In this document: one piece after another, positions 18,345-50,975 of the stretch
Numbering within the stretch: the stretch's first letter is position 1
Layout of the letters: every line of letters begins with the position of its first letter
Assembly (NCBI RefSeq): GCF_000003605.2
Contig: NW_003135843.1
Location: 1-52,615 of the forward strand
Reading direction: 5' to 3'
DNA length: 52,615 nt
Source of the DNA: Saccoglossus kowalevskii
Taxonomy: Eukaryota; Hemichordata; Enteropneusta; Harrimaniidae
Notes under the pieces: generated by a model
What the model saw: the letters and a program-made list of their open reading frames with translations, nothing else
Databases searched by the model: none
What the model was told of the DNA's origin: nothing
Program-made: the position numbers and the translations under genes

Positions 18345-18486
18345 GCGGCTTGCTGAAGTATTCGCTTGAGCTGCAGACGTTCTCCTACATTAGCTGATCA
18401 TATGCCACTATCAATATCAATACAGTGGCTCTGAGAACGATGACAATTCTACTTAGTTGATGAGCAATTCCATAGTAATACAAAAT

Positions 18487-19527
18487 ATGGAGCAGGCGTA
18501 CATTTTGAACACTACTTTTAACGGACCAGCTAACCCAGCCCTGGCTAATATCTCTACGTTCGATAATACTGTTAATCTACAATCCTTTCGGATAGTCATT
18601 TCTACGATGTTTATTTTAGTTTGCGTGTGTGGTCTCCTTGGAAACGGTTTAGTTATCTTCATTTTGCTCCGTTTCAGCGATATGCGAACTGTTCCGAATG
18701 TATTCATCTTAAACTTGGCGTCCAGTGATTTTCTCTTCATGCTAGGGATTCCGTTTCTTCTGCAGTACAACATGCAAGGACAATGGATATTCGGAAACGG
18801 CATGTGTAAAATAGTACAGTGTATTGATTACATCAACATGTTTACTGGAATATTCACCTTAACAGTGATGAGTTGTGATCGATATTTAGCGCTTGTTTAC
18901 CCGTTAAGATCAATGTCACTACGGACAGTTAAGCACGCTCGCATAACCTGTATCATATTGTGGATTATTTCTATTCCATTGACTTTACCGTTGTGGTTGT
19001 ACTCCACCGTTTCCCAAGCTACCGACGGGTCAAACAAGACATTGTGTGTCACGAGCTGGCCTAATGAGTACATTGAGAATGGTTTTTTTTTACTCGTATT
19101 CATCGTTGGATTTGCACTTCCCATATTGCTAATATCTCTCTGTCATATCGGCATTTTACGACATGTTGTCTACATGAAGAAGAGGATTAACCTTGGAAAA
19201 AACTGTTCTCAGTTTTCAATGAAAATAACCATTATAATCCTTCTAACTGTTATCGCATTTGCGATATGCTGGTTGCCATATTGGGTACTCTTACTACTCA
19301 GAGCACTTGGAGACCAGGAGGTTACTCTAGAGTACTTCATAGTCTTCAATATTGCCGTGTGTTTGAGTTATTTCAACAGTTGCCTTAATCCGATTATATA
19401 CACATGCGTGGGCAAAGATTTCCAAAACAGAATGTCTGGTTGTTTTCAATGTTCCAAACGAATAAGAAGCAACAGCAGACGATACACATCGCCGACCACA
19501 ACAAACGCTCGTATGACAAGATTATAA
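18487..19527 (+). CDS. Receptor A: somatostatin/allatostatin-C receptor-like class A GPCR, single exon
   Basis: A seven-helix peptide receptor of 346 aa, expected in the plasma membrane and G-protein coupled. Visible in the protein: N-linked sequons at N8 and N21 before TM1 (about 33-61); D81 (2.50) in TM2; C107 and ECL2 C187 as the conserved disulfide; D114 (3.32) and N117 (3.35) in a DYINMFT stretch very like somatostatin receptors; DRY at 131-133; an ECL2 sequon at N183; the Trp-Pro after the ECL2 cysteine typical of somatostatin/AstC receptors; CWLPYW at 261-266; NPIIY at 301-305; a C-terminal -TRL that fits a class I PDZ ligand. An in-frame ATG lies 27 nt upstream at 18460 (355 aa). I prefer 18487 because it has a better Kozak context and gives the same length and sequon spacing as receptor B. 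The upstream in-frame stop at 18454 sits in a possible splice acceptor, so a non-coding 5' exon is possible. Melanin-concentrating-hormone or opioid-type receptor is the nearest alternative. The ligand is unknown. Confidence 0.95.
   Translation: MEQAYILNTTFNGPANPALANISTFDNTVNLQSFRIVISTMFILVCVCGLLGNGLVIFILLRFSDMRTVPNVFILNLASSDFLFMLGIPFLLQYNMQGQWIFGNGMCKIVQCIDYINMFTGIFTLTVMSCDRYLALVYPLRSMSLRTVKHARITCIILWIISIPLTLPLWLYSTVSQATDGSNKTLCVTSWPNEYIENGFFLLVFIVGFALPILLISLCHIGILRHVVYMKKRINLGKNCSQFSMKITIIILLTVIAFAICWLPYWVLLLLRALGDQEVTLEYFIVFNIAVCLSYFNSCLNPIIYTCVGKDFQNRMSGCFQCSKRIRSNSRRYTSPTTTNARMTRL
18667..19010 (+). repeat. Gene-conversion tract, receptor A copy
   Basis: These 344 bp match 33818-34161 in receptor B at a constant offset of 15151 with only about 7 differences, all synonymous. 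The run 18781-18980 is a perfect 200-bp match. In the 66 bases just to the left (18601-18666) I count about 18 differences, and divergence jumps again immediately to the right in ECL2. Silent sites are therefore homogenised only inside the tract, which selection on the protein alone does not explain. Confidence 0.9.
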
Positions 19528-21087: not shown

Positions 21088-21770
21088 NNNNNNNNNNNNN
21101 NNNNNNNNNNNNNNNNNNNNNNNNNNNNNNNNNNNNNNNNNNNNNNNNNNNNNNNNNNNNNNNNNNNNNNNNNNNNNNNNNNNNNNNNNNNNNNNNNNNN
21201 NNNNNNNNNNNNNNNNNNNNNNNNNNNNNNNNNNNNNNNNNNNNNNNNNNNNNNNNNNNNNNNNNNNNNNNNNNNNNNNNNNNNNNNNNNNNNNNNNNNN
21301 NNNNNNNNNNNNNNNNNNNNNNNNNNNNNNNNNNNNNNNNNNNNNNNNNNNNNNNNNNNNNNNNNNNNNNNNNNNNNNNNNNNNNNNNNNNNNNNNNNNN
21401 NNNNNNNNNNNNNNNNNNNNNNNNNNNNNNNNNNNNNNNNNNNNNNNNNNNNNNNNNNNNNNNNNNNNNNNNNNNNNNNNNNNNNNNNNNNNNNNNNNNN
21501 NNNNNNNNNNNNNNNNNNNNNNNNNNNNNNNNNNNNNNNNNNNNNNNNNNNNNNNNNNNNNNNNNNNNNNNNNNNNNNNNNNNNNNNNNNNNNNNNNNNN
21601 NNNNNNNNNNNNNNNNNNNNNNNNNNNNNNNNNNNNNNNNNNNNNNNNNNNNNNNNNNNNNNNNNNNNNNNNNNNNNNNNNNNNNNNNNNNNNNNNNNNN
21701 NNNNNNNNNNNNNNNNNNNNNNNNNNNNNNNNNNNNNNNNNNNNNNNNNNNNNNNNNNNNNNNNNNNNNN
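21088..21770. other. Assembly gap (683 N)
   Basis: A run of N between a probable MITE and the 369-bp tandem array. No feature can be read here, and frames passing through it are meaningless. Confidence 1.
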
Positions 21771-21831
21771 GACGGGTTTCACGTTCTCTGCACGTAATAA
21801 GCTCGGTTATTAAGCATCCTTTTTTGGGGAT

Positions 21832-21922
21832 GCCCGGTGGCCGAGGGGAAGACGTGTAGTGGCGTGAAGCTAGGCGATTAGGTGCCGTACGCGAGCGCCG
21901 GTTCGAGTCACGCACGCAGTAC
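21832..21922 (+). ncRNA. tRNA-like sequence with Pol III A and B boxes, unit 1
   Basis: TGGCCGAGGGG at 21838-21848 resembles the A box of Ser/Leu-type tRNAs, and GGTTCGAGTCA at 21900-21910 matches the B box. The boxes are 62 nt apart, as in tRNAs with a long variable arm. The T-stem does not pair well, so this is more likely a tRNA-derived SINE or decayed tRNA than a working tRNA. Confidence 0.5.
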
Positions 21923-22200
21923 GTATTTACTATAATTAGACATAGTCTTTACCTTGCCGTTTATTCGGTGTTATTTGCTTACTTTACTTCCTATGTCGAC
22001 AGCAACTATGAGTTTAAAAATTATTTCTCAGTACTTATTCACTGTTAAAATGCTGTACCATTACTTTCACCATCCTACTACAGCCAGATCTGAAGGCCTT
22101 TGCCGCATTCTGGCCATGCTGTGTGGCGCGTATCGCGTGGACGGGTTTCACGTTCTCTGCACGTAATAAGCTCGGTTATTAAGCATCCTTTTTTGGGGAT

Positions 22201-22291
22201 GCCCGGTGGCCGAGGGGAAGACGTGTAGTGGCGTGAAGCTAGGCGATTAGGTGCCGTACGCGAGCGCCGGTTCGAGTCACGCACGCAGTAC
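22201..22291 (+). ncRNA. tRNA-like sequence with Pol III A and B boxes, unit 2
   Basis: Identical to the copy 369 bp upstream, with the A box at 22207-22217 and the B box at 22269-22279. It is followed by unique sequence from 22354. Confidence 0.5.
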
Positions 22292-22353
22292 GTATTTACT
22301 ATAATTAGACATAGTCTTTACCTTGCCGTTTATTCGGTGTTATTTGCTTACTT

Positions 22354-25429: not shown

Positions 25430-26110
25430 ATAACGAGAGATATGACTACTCAAATATTTGATTTACGAGGGCATTCCTCGATATTACATTTATGTTATTT
25501 TTGATGTATTTGACTTTAAACCAACGGCTAGTAAACATGTACCTTCAGATGCACACTGTATCATCTGAGATTTTATGTAGCTTTCCTTAGTTCTGGCTCG
25601 GATATATCGACATACATGTACAAGGAATTGTATCGATCAATTTGTATTTAAATGTACATCACGTATTTTATTGAAAAGTGAACGTTAAAATACTCTCTGT
25701 TGACATGAATAAATTCCATTTACTATATTTTGCAATGGTGTTATTGACGACAAGCTTGTAAACGACTTGTCAATACGCCTATCAACGACTTGTCTAAAGG
25801 CTTGCCACAATGCTTACAATTGTATACATGTGCCGTATTCAGTGGTGCAGTCATTTTGTAAAAAATCAACTTATTGTACTCAGACGTGGCTTTGCAATCA
25901 AGTTACCTTCCGCGTATTTATTGTTTTCTGTCTGTTATTTTTTTTCTATTAAAAATGTCACATTTCAGTTTCGTAGTTAATATAGAAATCACGTTTCCAA
26001 TTATAAGTACTATTTACTTTTTTGATTTACGATAAAAGTGAAGAAAATTACAATGCATGGAATAGATGTGACATTTTGTCACCATTAATGTTTATGGTGA
26101 TTGCACAATA
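25430..26110. repeat. Ancient duplicated non-coding block, copy 1
   Basis: It aligns in order with about 30060-30620. Shared stretches include TTAAACCAA-x-x-GCTAGTA, TGTACA-x-x-x-AATTGTATCGATCA then AAATGTACATCA, TACTC-GACRTGG, a T-rich CTGTC stretch, and GATTTA followed by ATTACAAT and GTGACA. There are many small insertions and deletions, so the event is old. No coding frame is conserved. Confidence 0.55.
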
Positions 26111-30059: not shown

Positions 30060-30620
30060 CACCCCCCCCCCCCATCATTCTAACATTAGATATACAAAGA
30101 CATTCCCGATATATACTGATATATTCGTTTTACGATTCGGTTTAAACCAAGAGCTAGTACATATGGACGACGCTGTTTTTTATAACTACCGCGTAATTGT
30201 GCCTTGGGTATAATAACCCTTGTGACACAAAACAAATTCACCGGTGATATGCATGTACAAAAAATTGTATCGATCAGTGTATAAATGTACATCATGTATT
30301 ATATCGAAAAATGAAAGCACGAATAAATTATATTCACAGTAGTTTGCTTTGATACATTTCTTAGTACAACTCTATTATATTTTATACTCGGACATGGTCT
30401 TATACTCCCTCAAACTTCACAGTCTGTCGTTTTTTCCCTCTTTGATATTATGTATATAAAATTTCAATTATTATATTGCTCACGGTTACGATTTATACAC
30501 ATTATTTTGATTTATAACACCGACAAAAAAAATCATTTACAAATTTAATTACAATACATCGGAAATCGTGACACTTAACCATCATTTCCGTGTTATGATA
30601 AATATTCAACCAGTTTTATT
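30060..30620. repeat. Ancient duplicated non-coding block, copy 2
   Basis: Counterpart of 25430-26110, 4.6 kb to the right and in the same orientation. The best-kept part is around 30254-30300. It starts next to a run of 12 C (30062-30073). Confidence 0.55.
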
Positions 30621-33634: not shown

Positions 33635-34675
33635 ATGGCTCAGGTGCATCCCGTGAACTATTCATTGAACGCCTCAGCTGATATAGAACAATTCAATATC
33701 TCGTCATTATCTACAACCGACTTTGACATGGAATCTTTTCGGGTGGTGATCACCACGTTGTTTATACTAGTCTGCGTGTGCGGTCTTCTGGGCAACGGTT
33801 TAGTCATCGTAATCCTACTCCGTTTCAGCGACATGCGAACTGTTCCCAATGTATTCATCTTAAACTTGGCGTCCAGTGATTTTCTTTTCATGCTAGGGAT
33901 TCCGTTTCTTCTGCAGTACAACATGCAAGGGCAATGGATATTCGGAAACGGCATGTGTAAAATAGTACAGTGTATTGATTACATCAACATGTTTACTGGA
34001 ATATTCACCTTAACAGTGATGAGTTGTGATCGATATTTAGCGCTTGTTTACCCGTTAAGATCAATGTCACTACGGACAGTTAAGCACGCTCGCATAACCT
34101 GTATCATATTGTGGATTATTTCTATTCCATTAACCTTACCGTTGTGGTTGTACTCCACCGTCTCACATATCACTGATGAGTTTAATCAACCTAAGACGGA
34201 GTGCGAGACAAATTGGCCAAACGACTACATTAACCATGTGTTTTTTATATTCGCATTTGTCGTCGGATTTGCCCTGCCTATTTTATTAATATCTCTTTGT
34301 CACGTGGGTATTTTACGCCACGTTGTATGCATGAAGAACAAAGCTGATCTGGGACGACACTTTCCACAGTTTTCTATGAAAATAACGATGATCATACTCC
34401 TTGCATTGCTCGCATTCGCCGTGTGTTGGTTGCCATACTGGGTACTCATACTACTCAGGGCGATTGGAAACCAGAAAGTTACCCTGGAGTACTATGTGGT
34501 TTTCAACATTTCCTTATGTCTGAGTTATTTCAATAGCTGTCTCAACCCTTTGATATACACCTGCGTTGGTAGAGATTTTCAGGAAAAGATGTCACGTTTT
34601 TTTCACTGTTCCAGAGGCGCCGATATTAACTCTAGGATGACGACCACAGGAGACATGCGAATTACCAAGTTGTAA
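33635..34675 (+). CDS. Receptor B: somatostatin/allatostatin-C receptor-like class A GPCR, single exon, paralogue of A
   Basis: A 346-aa seven-helix receptor, the tandem paralogue of receptor A. The start ATG has a good context (A at -3, G at +4). Seen: N-terminal sequons at N8, N12 and N21; D82 (2.50); C108/C190 disulfide pair; D115 (3.32); DRY at 132-134; Cys then Trp-Pro in ECL2; CWLPYW at 264-269; NPLIY at 304-308; C-terminal -TKL, again a class I PDZ ligand. Residues 60-177 (end of TM1 through TM4) are identical to receptor A, while the N-terminus, ECL2, TM5-TM7 and tail have diverged; ECL2 lacks the sequon seen in A. Inference: the two may share G-protein coupling and part of the pocket but differ in ligand preference or regulation. 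A TATA box and splice donor about 1 kb upstream suggest a spliced 5'UTR, and an AATAAA follows the stop by about 210 nt. Confidence 0.95.
   Translation: MAQVHPVNYSLNASADIEQFNISSLSTTDFDMESFRVVITTLFILVCVCGLLGNGLVIVILLRFSDMRTVPNVFILNLASSDFLFMLGIPFLLQYNMQGQWIFGNGMCKIVQCIDYINMFTGIFTLTVMSCDRYLALVYPLRSMSLRTVKHARITCIILWIISIPLTLPLWLYSTVSHITDEFNQPKTECETNWPNDYINHVFFIFAFVVGFALPILLISLCHVGILRHVVCMKNKADLGRHFPQFSMKITMIILLALLAFAVCWLPYWVLILLRAIGNQKVTLEYYVVFNISLCLSYFNSCLNPLIYTCVGRDFQEKMSRFFHCSRGADINSRMTTTGDMRITKL
33818..34161 (+). repeat. Gene-conversion tract, receptor B copy
   Basis: Partner of 18667-19010. The perfect 200-bp core here is 33932-34131. It encodes the end of TM1, ICL1, TM2, ECL1, TM3 with DRY, ICL2 and TM4. 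The direction of transfer cannot be told from two copies. Confidence 0.9.
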
Positions 34676-38863: not shown

Positions 38864-40543
38864 AATGTAATTATCTTTCAACATAGTGTCAATTATTCTA
38901 CTCCTAAACTAAGGTGGGACACCAAGGGAAAACCAAAGTATTATAATAATATTAATTTACAACACGTTGAGGGGATGCGCCATGATTTTCATGATAATAT
39001 TAGGCAGGGAAATGTAAGTAAAGCTGCAAATAATTTAGTTGATATTATATATGCTTGTAACACACATATGATGCACAAACCTAATTATGTTGGCAAGTCA
39101 TATTTTAACTCCTGGTTTGNNNNNNNNNNNNNNNNNNNNNNNNNNNNNNNNNNNNNNNNNNNNNNNNNNNNNNNNNNNNNNNNNNNNNNNNNNNNNNNNN
39201 NNNNNNNNNNNNNNNNNNNNNNNNNNNNNNNNNNNNNNNNNNNNNNNNNNNNNNNNNNNNNNNNNNNNNNNNNNNNNNNNNNNNNNNNNNNNNNNNNNNN
39301 NNNNNNNNNNNNNNNNNNNNNNNNNNNNNNNNNNNNNNNNNNNNNNNNNNNNNNNNNNNNNNNNNNNNNNNNNNNNNNNNNNNNNNNNNNNNNNNNNNNN
39401 NNNNNNNNNNNNNNNNNNNNNNNNNNNNNNNNNNNNNNNNNNNNNNNNNNNNNNNNNNNNNNNNNNNNNNNNNNNNNNNNNNNNNNNNNNNNNNNNNNNN
39501 NNNNNNNNNNNNNNNNNNNNNNNNNNNNNNNNNNNNNNNNNNNNNNNNNNNNNNNNNNNNNNNNNNNNNNNNNNNNNNNNNNNNNNNNNNNNNNNNNNNN
39601 NNNNNNNNNNNNNNNNNNNNNNNNNNNNNNNNNNNNNNNNNNNNNNNNNNNNNNNNNNNNNNNNNNNNNNNNNNNNNNNNNNNNNNNNNNNNNNNNNNNN
39701 NNNNNNNNNNNNNNNNNNNNNNNNNNNNNNNNNNNNNNNNNNNNNNNNNNNNNNNNNNNNNNNNNNNNCCCAATTCTCCTCTACGGTAGTGCTATTTGGG
39801 GCACACATTCTGATATTAATGATGTGGAGAGAGTACACAATAAATTTTGCAAATTTTTACTAACTGTTAGTTTGGTTGCCACTAATTCCGCTGTTAGGGG
39901 AGAGTTGGGTCGGCATTATCTTAGAGTGTATGTAAATGTTGAAATTATTCGTTTTTGGTTAAAACTAATACGTGATGTTTCTCCACATATTTTAAAAGAA
40001 TCGTATAAATTTCAACTTAATATGGCAGGAGCAGGTACTATCTGCTGGGCTTTGACAGTTAAAAATCTTCTCTATAAATATGGTTTTGGACATATTTGGA
40101 TTGACCAATATGTAAGTAACTCTATTGCATTCCTGGAACTATATAAACAGAGGTGCTTTGATATTTCCAGACAAGATTGGAGCTCTGAAATTAATAGAAG
40201 TCTCAAACTAGTAACTTATTGTAAGGTGAAACATGAATTAACATGTGAGAAATATCTTACAAATATTGGTCAGTCTTATGCAATATACAGAAATGCTTTA
40301 TGTAGATTAAGGATTTCGTCCCATGTACTACAAATTGAAAAGGGTAGGGCCAGTGGTACTCCACGTAACCAGAGGTTGTGTCCTTTTGGCTGTAGTGTAA
40401 TTGAGGACGAATACCACTTTACATTAATTTGTCCCAAATATAGCTCCCTAAGGTTGAAGTTTATTGCACAGTATTACTACTCCCCACCTACAGAGATAAA
40501 GCTATTTCATTATTTCAGAATCAAACCCCATATATACAATTAA
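38864..40543 (+). CDS. LINE ORF2-like reverse transcriptase, partial, polymerase core lost in gap
   Basis: The frame is open from 38864 to the stop at 40543 if the N run is read through; the first ATG is at 38975. After the gap come PILLYGSAIWG, a GELGRHYLRVY stretch and GFGHIWIDQ, all typical of the region behind the polymerase in LINE ORF2. Next is a cysteine/histidine motif (CPFGC, then EDEYHF and CPKY) seen at the C-terminus of many LINE ORF2 proteins. The gap of 649 N would hold only about 216 aa, roughly half of what normally separates the two visible parts. Either the gap is under-estimated or the copy is internally deleted. The in-frame agreement across N is not evidence of an intact gene. 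The catalytic YxDD box is not visible. Confidence 0.75.
   Translation, partial: NVIIFQHSVNYSTPKLRWDTKGKPKYYNNINLQHVEGMRHDFHDNIRQGNVSKAANNLVDIIYACNTHMMHKPNYVGKSYFNSWFXXXXXXXXXXXXXXXXXXXXXXXXXXXXXXXXXXXXXXXXXXXXXXXXXXXXXXXXXXXXXXXXXXXXXXXXXXXXXXXXXXXXXXXXXXXXXXXXXXXXXXXXXXXXXXXXXXXXXXXXXXXXXXXXXXXXXXXXXXXXXXXXXXXXXXXXXXXXXXXXXXXXXXXXXXXXXXXXXXXXXXXXXXXXXXXXXXXXXXXXXXXXXXXXXXXXXXXXXPILLYGSAIWGTHSDINDVERVHNKFCKFLLTVSLVATNSAVRGELGRHYLRVYVNVEIIRFWLKLIRDVSPHILKESYKFQLNMAGAGTICWALTVKNLLYKYGFGHIWIDQYVSNSIAFLELYKQRCFDISRQDWSSEINRSLKLVTYCKVKHELTCEKYLTNIGQSYAIYRNALCRLRISSHVLQIEKGRASGTPRNQRLCPFGCSVIEDEYHFTLICPKYSSLRLKFIAQYYYSPPTEIKLFHYFRIKPHIYN
39120..39768. other. Assembly gap (649 N) inside the LINE
   Basis: A run of N within the LINE ORF2-like region, most likely caused by the repeat itself. 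Confidence 1.
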
Positions 40544-50148: not shown

Positions 50149-50975
50149 ATGAAATCAGCTCTAGAACTAGCGATTATAGATGCATCGAGTAGGAGCTCAA
50201 ATTCCCACCTGTATTTCGGCGTTGCGAGAATTATCTATGTAAATTCTCATTTAAACAATGTTATAGACTGGTGCGATACAAATAAATCAACAATAAATTT
50301 AAAAAATGAATACATTATATTTAGAGGTAAACAGGCATCAATACATTCAACGGGTACAATTAGTATAAACGGGATAACAATATATGAAGTTGAAACAACT
50401 AGGTACCTTGGTGTTGAATTGGACAATAACCTTGACTGGAAGAACCATATACAAAAAGTAAACAAAACAATAAGTAGTAAAGCAGGTATTCTTTTCAAGT
50501 TGAGGGACATTATTCCACCATCTATTCTTTTACTATTATATAACTGTTTCATCCTACCGCATATTCCCTGGGCACTAAAAGTTTTGGGGAACACGTACTC
50601 AACTTACCTGAAACCCATACATCTCACAGAGAAAAGAATTGTACGCATAATAACACGATCAGATCGCCTCTCATACACTTCTTCATTTTTTAATCAGCTC
50701 CATTTACTAGATATCTATAAACAACATAATTTGCAAATGTCTTTGTTTGTTCATGTTATTCTCAATGGCAAGTTACCGCCAGGGTTTACTCAATATTTTA
50801 TCACACAAAATCAAAAGCATTAGGTAATATTCCAAAATACCATACTAATTCGGGGCAACATTCAATCAAATATACTGGGGCTAAGATCTGGAATAAACTT
50901 CCAGAAGGAATTCGTTCCATGAGCTCAAAAAATTCATTCAAAAAAGAAATGAAAAGATTTTTACAGTATGCATAA
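50149..50975 (+). pseudogene. LINE ORF2 fragment with frameshift near 50815
   Basis: The frame 50149-50823 carries NLKNEYIIFRG, then RYLGVELDNNLDWKNHI (palm/thumb motif of LINE polymerases), SKAGILFKLR and EKRIVRIITRSDR. It stops at 50821-50823. The family's C-terminus continues in another frame from about 50808: IKYTGAKIWNKLPEGIRS and SFKKEMKRFL, ending at the TAA 50973-50975. The catalytic aspartates are absent, so the copy is non-functional. The first 30 or so residues of the frame (50149 to about 50235) look like flanking DNA rather than element. Confidence 0.75.

Follow-up and report, generated by a model that had tools for sequence, protein, structure and literature searches.

Gene conversion of the kind considered here for two tandem receptor genes, A and B, of the hemichordate Saccoglossus kowalevskii is an ordinary process that already is known from similar receptor pairs. 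In Rhinolophoidea bats the CCR5 conversion tract comprises residues 66-191, beginning within TM1 and ending within TM4 (PMC8877049). Like A and B, CCR2 and CCR5 are adjacent class A GPCR genes, and the tracts are similar in size and occupy nearly the same helices (PMC8877049). The pairs differ in that 18 bat species provide both the events and their direction (PMC8877049) whereas A and B are known from one genome, and in that CCR2 and CCR5 are chemokine receptors whereas A and B are somatostatin-like. CCR conversions lie mainly in transmembrane regions and some extend into extracellular loops (PMC2880985, in part).

The TLR1 and TLR6 genes also are tandem receptors with a diverged ligand part and a homogenized remainder, for which the same functional reading as for A and B has been proposed in the available part of PMC2077338. 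They are not GPCRs, however, the tract there takes in most of the signaling (TIR) domain, and nine species display independent events with nearly the same limits (PMC2077338). The human red and green opsin genes form a tandem GPCR pair ~24 kb apart in which low-divergence conversion stretches adjoin a diverged functional part, and conversion and selection are in contest there (PMC3924837, in part). In contrast to A and B, which are single open frames whose silent divergence beyond the tract has reached saturation, conversion in the opsins falls mostly in introns (PMC3924837). Tandem duplicates of AST-C receptor-like genes in oyster resemble A and B as invertebrate somatostatin-type receptors, but the term 'gene conversion' has 0 occurrences in the available main text of the article that describes them (PMC8514136), and is absent likewise from that of a paper on vertebrate SSTR evolution (PMC3560075). 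By title, none of the matches listed described conversion within a pair of somatostatin-type receptors from an invertebrate, in a search outside which most subscription papers lay. At deeper levels, recombination among GPCRs has been argued to be frequent in the part of PMC2684142 that was available.

The receptor pair

The window, the whole stretch of 52,615 bp that was analyzed, has a G+C content of 34.9% and, with N included in the length, a CpG observed/expected ratio of about 1.09. CpG is therefore not depleted, in contrast to typical vertebrate DNA. Judging from the receptor genes, the window reads as animal DNA. The two genes lie on the same strand, 15.15 kb apart from start to start, with B downstream (Table 1). 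The start of gene A was taken as the ATG that aligns with the start of gene B; a second in-frame ATG at 18460, 27 bp upstream, may extend the N-terminus by 9 residues.

Table 1. Positions of the receptor genes, the tract and the gaps within the window.
Feature	Position	Strand	Basis
Receptor gene A, somatostatin/opioid-like class A GPCR	18487..19527	+	one open frame, 346 aa, Pfam 7tm_1
Receptor gene B, paralogue of A	33635..34675	+	346 aa, uninterrupted frame, Pfam 7tm_1
Proposed homogenized tract in A, TM1 end to TM4 end	18667..19011	+	115 codons, codon alignment with B
Proposed homogenized tract in B	33818..34162	+	codon alignment, 15151-bp offset
Perfectly identical 200-bp core in A	18781..18980	+	A-B comparison
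Perfectly identical 200-bp core in B	33932..34131	+	offset 15151
N run	21088-21770
N run	39120-39768

Both proteins matched the Pfam 7tm_1 profile over its entire length (1-260 of 260) with E values of 2.6e-66 for A and 5.3e-66 for B, which places them among the class A GPCRs. The top relatives with solved structures were SSTR3, SSTR2 and SSTR4 for A, and SSTR4 and SSTR2 for B, with the nociceptin and opioid receptors ranked after the somatostatin receptors. In the printed alignments, Asp3.32 of A and B is aligned with the Asp of SSTR2, 3 and 4. Judged by the best solved structures and the kept Asp3.32, A and B belong to the somatostatin/opioid receptor group.

Searches of the window with both proteins by tblastn, at E values up to 1 and blind to the 1,332 N bases, revealed no third copy or pseudogene; besides A and B, one weak match of 21 aa was returned (12636-12574, E about 0.2). 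Any further copy elsewhere in the genome, outside the window, could have acted as a donor. No relative of A or B was found by tblastn in a viral contig collection (19 pattern matches) or in a prokaryote genome contig collection (55 pattern matches). Noncoding homology between the surroundings of the two genes was scant: when ~4.6 kb around A was compared with 5.1 kb around B, the single strong match was 18487-19456 of A, and the two remaining matches were weak (E 0.52).

A near-identical tract between diverged flanks

The codon alignment of A and B comprises 343 codons, over which 805 of 1029 nucleotides are identical. The sequence-only reading had described a stretch of 344 bp with ~98% identity, a perfect run of 200 bp and synonymous differences only. 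The alignment bears this out: positions 18667-19010 are identical at 338/344 sites (98.3%) with six differences, a seventh lies one base beyond at 19011, and the uninterrupted run is exactly 200 bp. The seven differences (18681, 18696, 18735, 18780, 18981, 18984 and 19011) all are silent with no amino acid changes, and all fall outside the central 200 bp. The run of 118 identical residues noted earlier was located at 18661-19014, slightly longer than the tract of low dS; three of its codons, two at the start and one at the end, lie outside that tract and differ silently. The flanks had been thought to differ at about a quarter of sites. They are indeed strongly diverged, but that estimate was a little low: the 684 bases that flank the 115-codon tract include 217 mismatches (32%), with 23% mismatch in the 60 bp 5′ of the tract and 38% in the 60 bp 3′ of it.

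Silent distance is far from uniform along the gene when assessed codon by codon. Values of dS were 1.67 in the left 60 codons, 0.10 in the 115 codons of the tract and 2.39 in the right 168 codons, and the corresponding dN values were 0.31, 0 and 0.22. The silent sites that flank the tract are near saturation. Among codons for identical residues other than Met and Trp, 7 of 105 differ within the tract compared to 73 of 137 outside it (Fisher p about 1e-15). The longest identical run was assessed under three permutation schemes, each run 20,000 times: all columns were shuffled in the first, silent codons in the second, and silent codons inside each residue class in the third. The observed run of 200 exceeded the best all-column shuffle of 65, the observed run of 60 silent codons exceeded the best of 31, and the best within residue class was 36; the observed value was attained in 0/20,000 shuffles under every scheme. 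The best-fitting single segment of low divergence is 18697-18978, in which 2 of 86 silent codons differ, and 18667-19008 fits 0.6 log units worse. Fits within 2 log units place the start at 18667-18706 and the end at 18969-19008, yielding two bounded breakpoints in homologous sequence. The seven differences are concentrated towards the tract edges with p 0.017 in a test that was chosen after the data had been seen.

Conservation of the protein was weighed against the other residue-identical runs of at least eight residues in A and B (n=4). In these runs 8/16, 9/14, 2/6 and 7/11 silent codons differ, compared to 10/108 in the run of 118 residues; the value of 2/6 also is low and trends in the opposite direction, but the run is tiny. 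Similarly, 11 of 17 flank codons differ silently where local amino acid identity is at least 0.95, and 19 of 37 where it is 0.85-0.95. Because other residue-identical runs mostly differ at silent codons, protein constraint alone is insufficient to explain the tract. Moreover, identity between SSTR chains across the tract-equivalent region is only 64-66% (two pairs), so that 115 identical residues out of 115 are unexpected from constraint. The chance of that outcome is ~2e-12 at the identity of the other helices (84/106) and 0.003 at 95% identity.

Selection at the level of DNA or RNA, through an overlapping element, RNA structure or codon choice, might instead have kept the tract constant in both copies with no exchange between them. 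This stretch encodes protein, and its residues are conserved, but the silent sites of the other residue-identical stretches mostly are free to vary. The tract shows no unusual RNA folding (z -0.85, with 17 of 100 shuffles as good), and no Rfam family reached its gathering score within the window. Five frames of at least 30 aa occur at 18600-19100, among which that of gene A alone spans the tract, and the antisense frames at 18453-18803 and 18897-19124 leave the middle of the tract uncovered. We regard this explanation as extremely improbable.

Where receptor pairs carry conversion tracts, gene trees and predictions of ligands can be misled. The duplication that produced A and B would date as recent from silent distances in the middle third of the gene, and as old from the remainder.

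Probable gene conversion and the placement of its limits

The silent-site pattern supports well the earlier suggestion of gene conversion. A and B are old tandem duplicates between which interlocus gene conversion probably copied ~340 bp far more recently than the duplication, an explanation to which we assign a probability of about 0.88 on the basis of one pair in one assembly. Under this explanation, A and B would derive from a single peptide receptor gene. Long after the duplication, a break in one copy would have been repaired from the sequence of its neighbor, replacing a segment of ~340 bp from the end of TM1 to the end of TM4 and leaving the rest of the gene unaltered. Judged by silent distance, the tract would have a small fraction of the age of the duplication, although the flanks are saturated. 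A single unequal crossover was rejected because it produces one breakpoint and the tract has two, and we favor conversion over a double crossover. According to the part of PMC2720389 that was available, conversion is frequent at such distances and drops off beyond 55 kb, within which A and B at 15 kb fall.

An error of assembly or polishing, in which reads from one gene were applied to its neighbor and made the middle identical, also was considered. The two N runs, one of which is abutted by an exact repeat of 214 bp, mark the sequence as a draft scaffold. However, no gap lies inside the receptor genes, the nearest being 1.6 kb beyond the end of A and 4.4 kb beyond that of B, and seven tract differences persist, every one beyond the core. 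A misjoin within an identical stretch would swap halves without creating identity, and a collapse would presuppose that near-identity already was there. An artefact of this type is very improbable.

More than one conversion event seems likely, as flanks with 32% mismatch would be expected to recombine poorly and the core appears more recent than the edges. The clustering of differences at the edges favors two or more events, or a recent, shorter event within an older one. Because recombination between sides that are so diverged should be rare, either previous conversions would have preserved the similarity of the middle, or one event would have begun in a conserved stretch. Against multiple events, linked neighbors can undergo conversion even when they are moderately diverged and share only short identical tracts, as reported in the available part of PMC3966223.

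Codon usage of the tract leans to that of the A flanks (ln Bayes factor 4.7 to 9.8), whereas its GC3 leans to B. Assignment of the donor by codon usage was rejected: held-out blocks of B also were A-like in 7 of 7 overlapping 76-codon blocks and in 9 of 10 57-codon blocks (alpha 1), held-out blocks of A scored either way (5 of 10 57-codon blocks A-like), and random exchange of flank labels gave p 0.05. Codon usage cannot tell the donor because held-out pieces of B also lean to A. Transition bias was set aside as a measure of age, with silent transitions at 6/7 in the tract and 46/71 in the flanks (p 0.41, not significant).

The limits of the TM helices in A and B were set from class A motifs together with the alignments. 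The landmarks were N1.50, D2.50, D3.32, DRY, W4.50, P5.50, CWxP and NPxxY, with segment limits of our own choice. An AlphaFold model of the two sequences (pLDDT 38, pTM 0.25) was left unused for this purpose. By these landmarks the tract begins at the cytoplasmic end of TM1 and reaches the outer end of TM4, as the sequence-only reading had proposed. Besides ICL1, DRY/ICL2 and TM2-TM4, it includes ECL1 and those faces of TM2 and TM3 that are turned to the ligand pocket, with the ligand-pocket residue Asp3.32 in TM3. The divergence ascribed previously to the N-terminus and ECL2 is evident, with 11/34 and 13/23 identical residues, respectively. Identity is 20/26 in TM5, 21/27 in TM6, 21/27 in TM7 and 8/11 in ECL3, and coupling parts beyond the tract also diverge (ICL3 12/21, C-tail 16/33). 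The proposal that conversion keeps a coupling half uniform while a ligand half evolves thus would fit ICL1 and DRY/ICL2 but not ECL1, Asp3.32, ICL3 and the C-tail; on these segment limits, a clean division into two such halves does not match the sequence.

In alignments made via A or B, which are approximate, SSTR2 and SSTR4 share 75/114 residues over the segment equivalent to the tract and 57/128 after it, and SSTR3 and SSTR2 share 73/114 and 67/129. In the SSTR chains compared (two pairs), conservation is higher in TM1-TM4 than after it, and conversion may therefore have occurred, or been tolerated, simply where the genes were most alike.

Alternatively, concerted evolution may be maintained by selection, in which repeated conversion of TM1-TM4 is favored by shared coupling or heterodimer contacts and the other regions are protected, a view also put forward for TLR1/TLR6. 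At the 3′ end the tract limit coincides with the change from conserved to diverged protein, and the edge-clustered differences, tested post hoc as noted above, suggest more than one event. Nevertheless, neutral landing in the most similar segment accounts for the same limits, and 16 identical residues directly 5′ of the tract (18610-18657) were not homogenized, with 8/16 silent codons differing. ICL3 and the C-tail, which likewise are coupling parts, diverge. Furthermore, the restriction of CCR2/CCR5 conversion to structural domains was argued once, but was not found by later studies (PMC8877049). Concerted evolution of this type is unlikely, and its odds lie inside those of conversion, of which it is a refinement. 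We likewise consider it doubtful that recurrent, selection-limited conversion has held a TM1-TM4 module of this invertebrate neuropeptide receptor pair identical over the long term, with saturated silent sites to either side, while the N-terminus, ECL2, ICL3 and tail diverged; A and B would then be two receptors built on a common core, possibly heterodimer partners. Whether selection or similarity sets the borders was left open by the authors of the bat CCR2/CCR5 study (PMC8877049), and those of the TLR1/TLR6 study state, in the part available, that they cannot settle it (PMC2077338). If sister species share the limits of the tract, the A/B pair would test selection against mere similarity as the factor that sets conversion borders.

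Repeats elsewhere in the window

The exact 214-bp repeat occupies 21771-21984 and 22140-22353, 369 bp from start to start, and its first copy is the one that abuts an N run. By eye it bears what we take to be a tRNA-like box A/box B pair of SINE type; ARAGORN and Rfam reported nothing for this repeat. The two copies either are a young pair of SINEs or arose by duplication of a contig end at the gap. Open frames at 38975-40543, which span the second N run, and at 50149-50823 were judged by eye to be, presumably, parts of LINE-type reverse transcriptases; Pfam gave no match at 0.001 for the transposon-like frames 39770-40540 and 50149-50820. A direct repeat of ~74 bp with 82% identity is present at 25609-25682 and 30246-30315, both copies lying between A and B.
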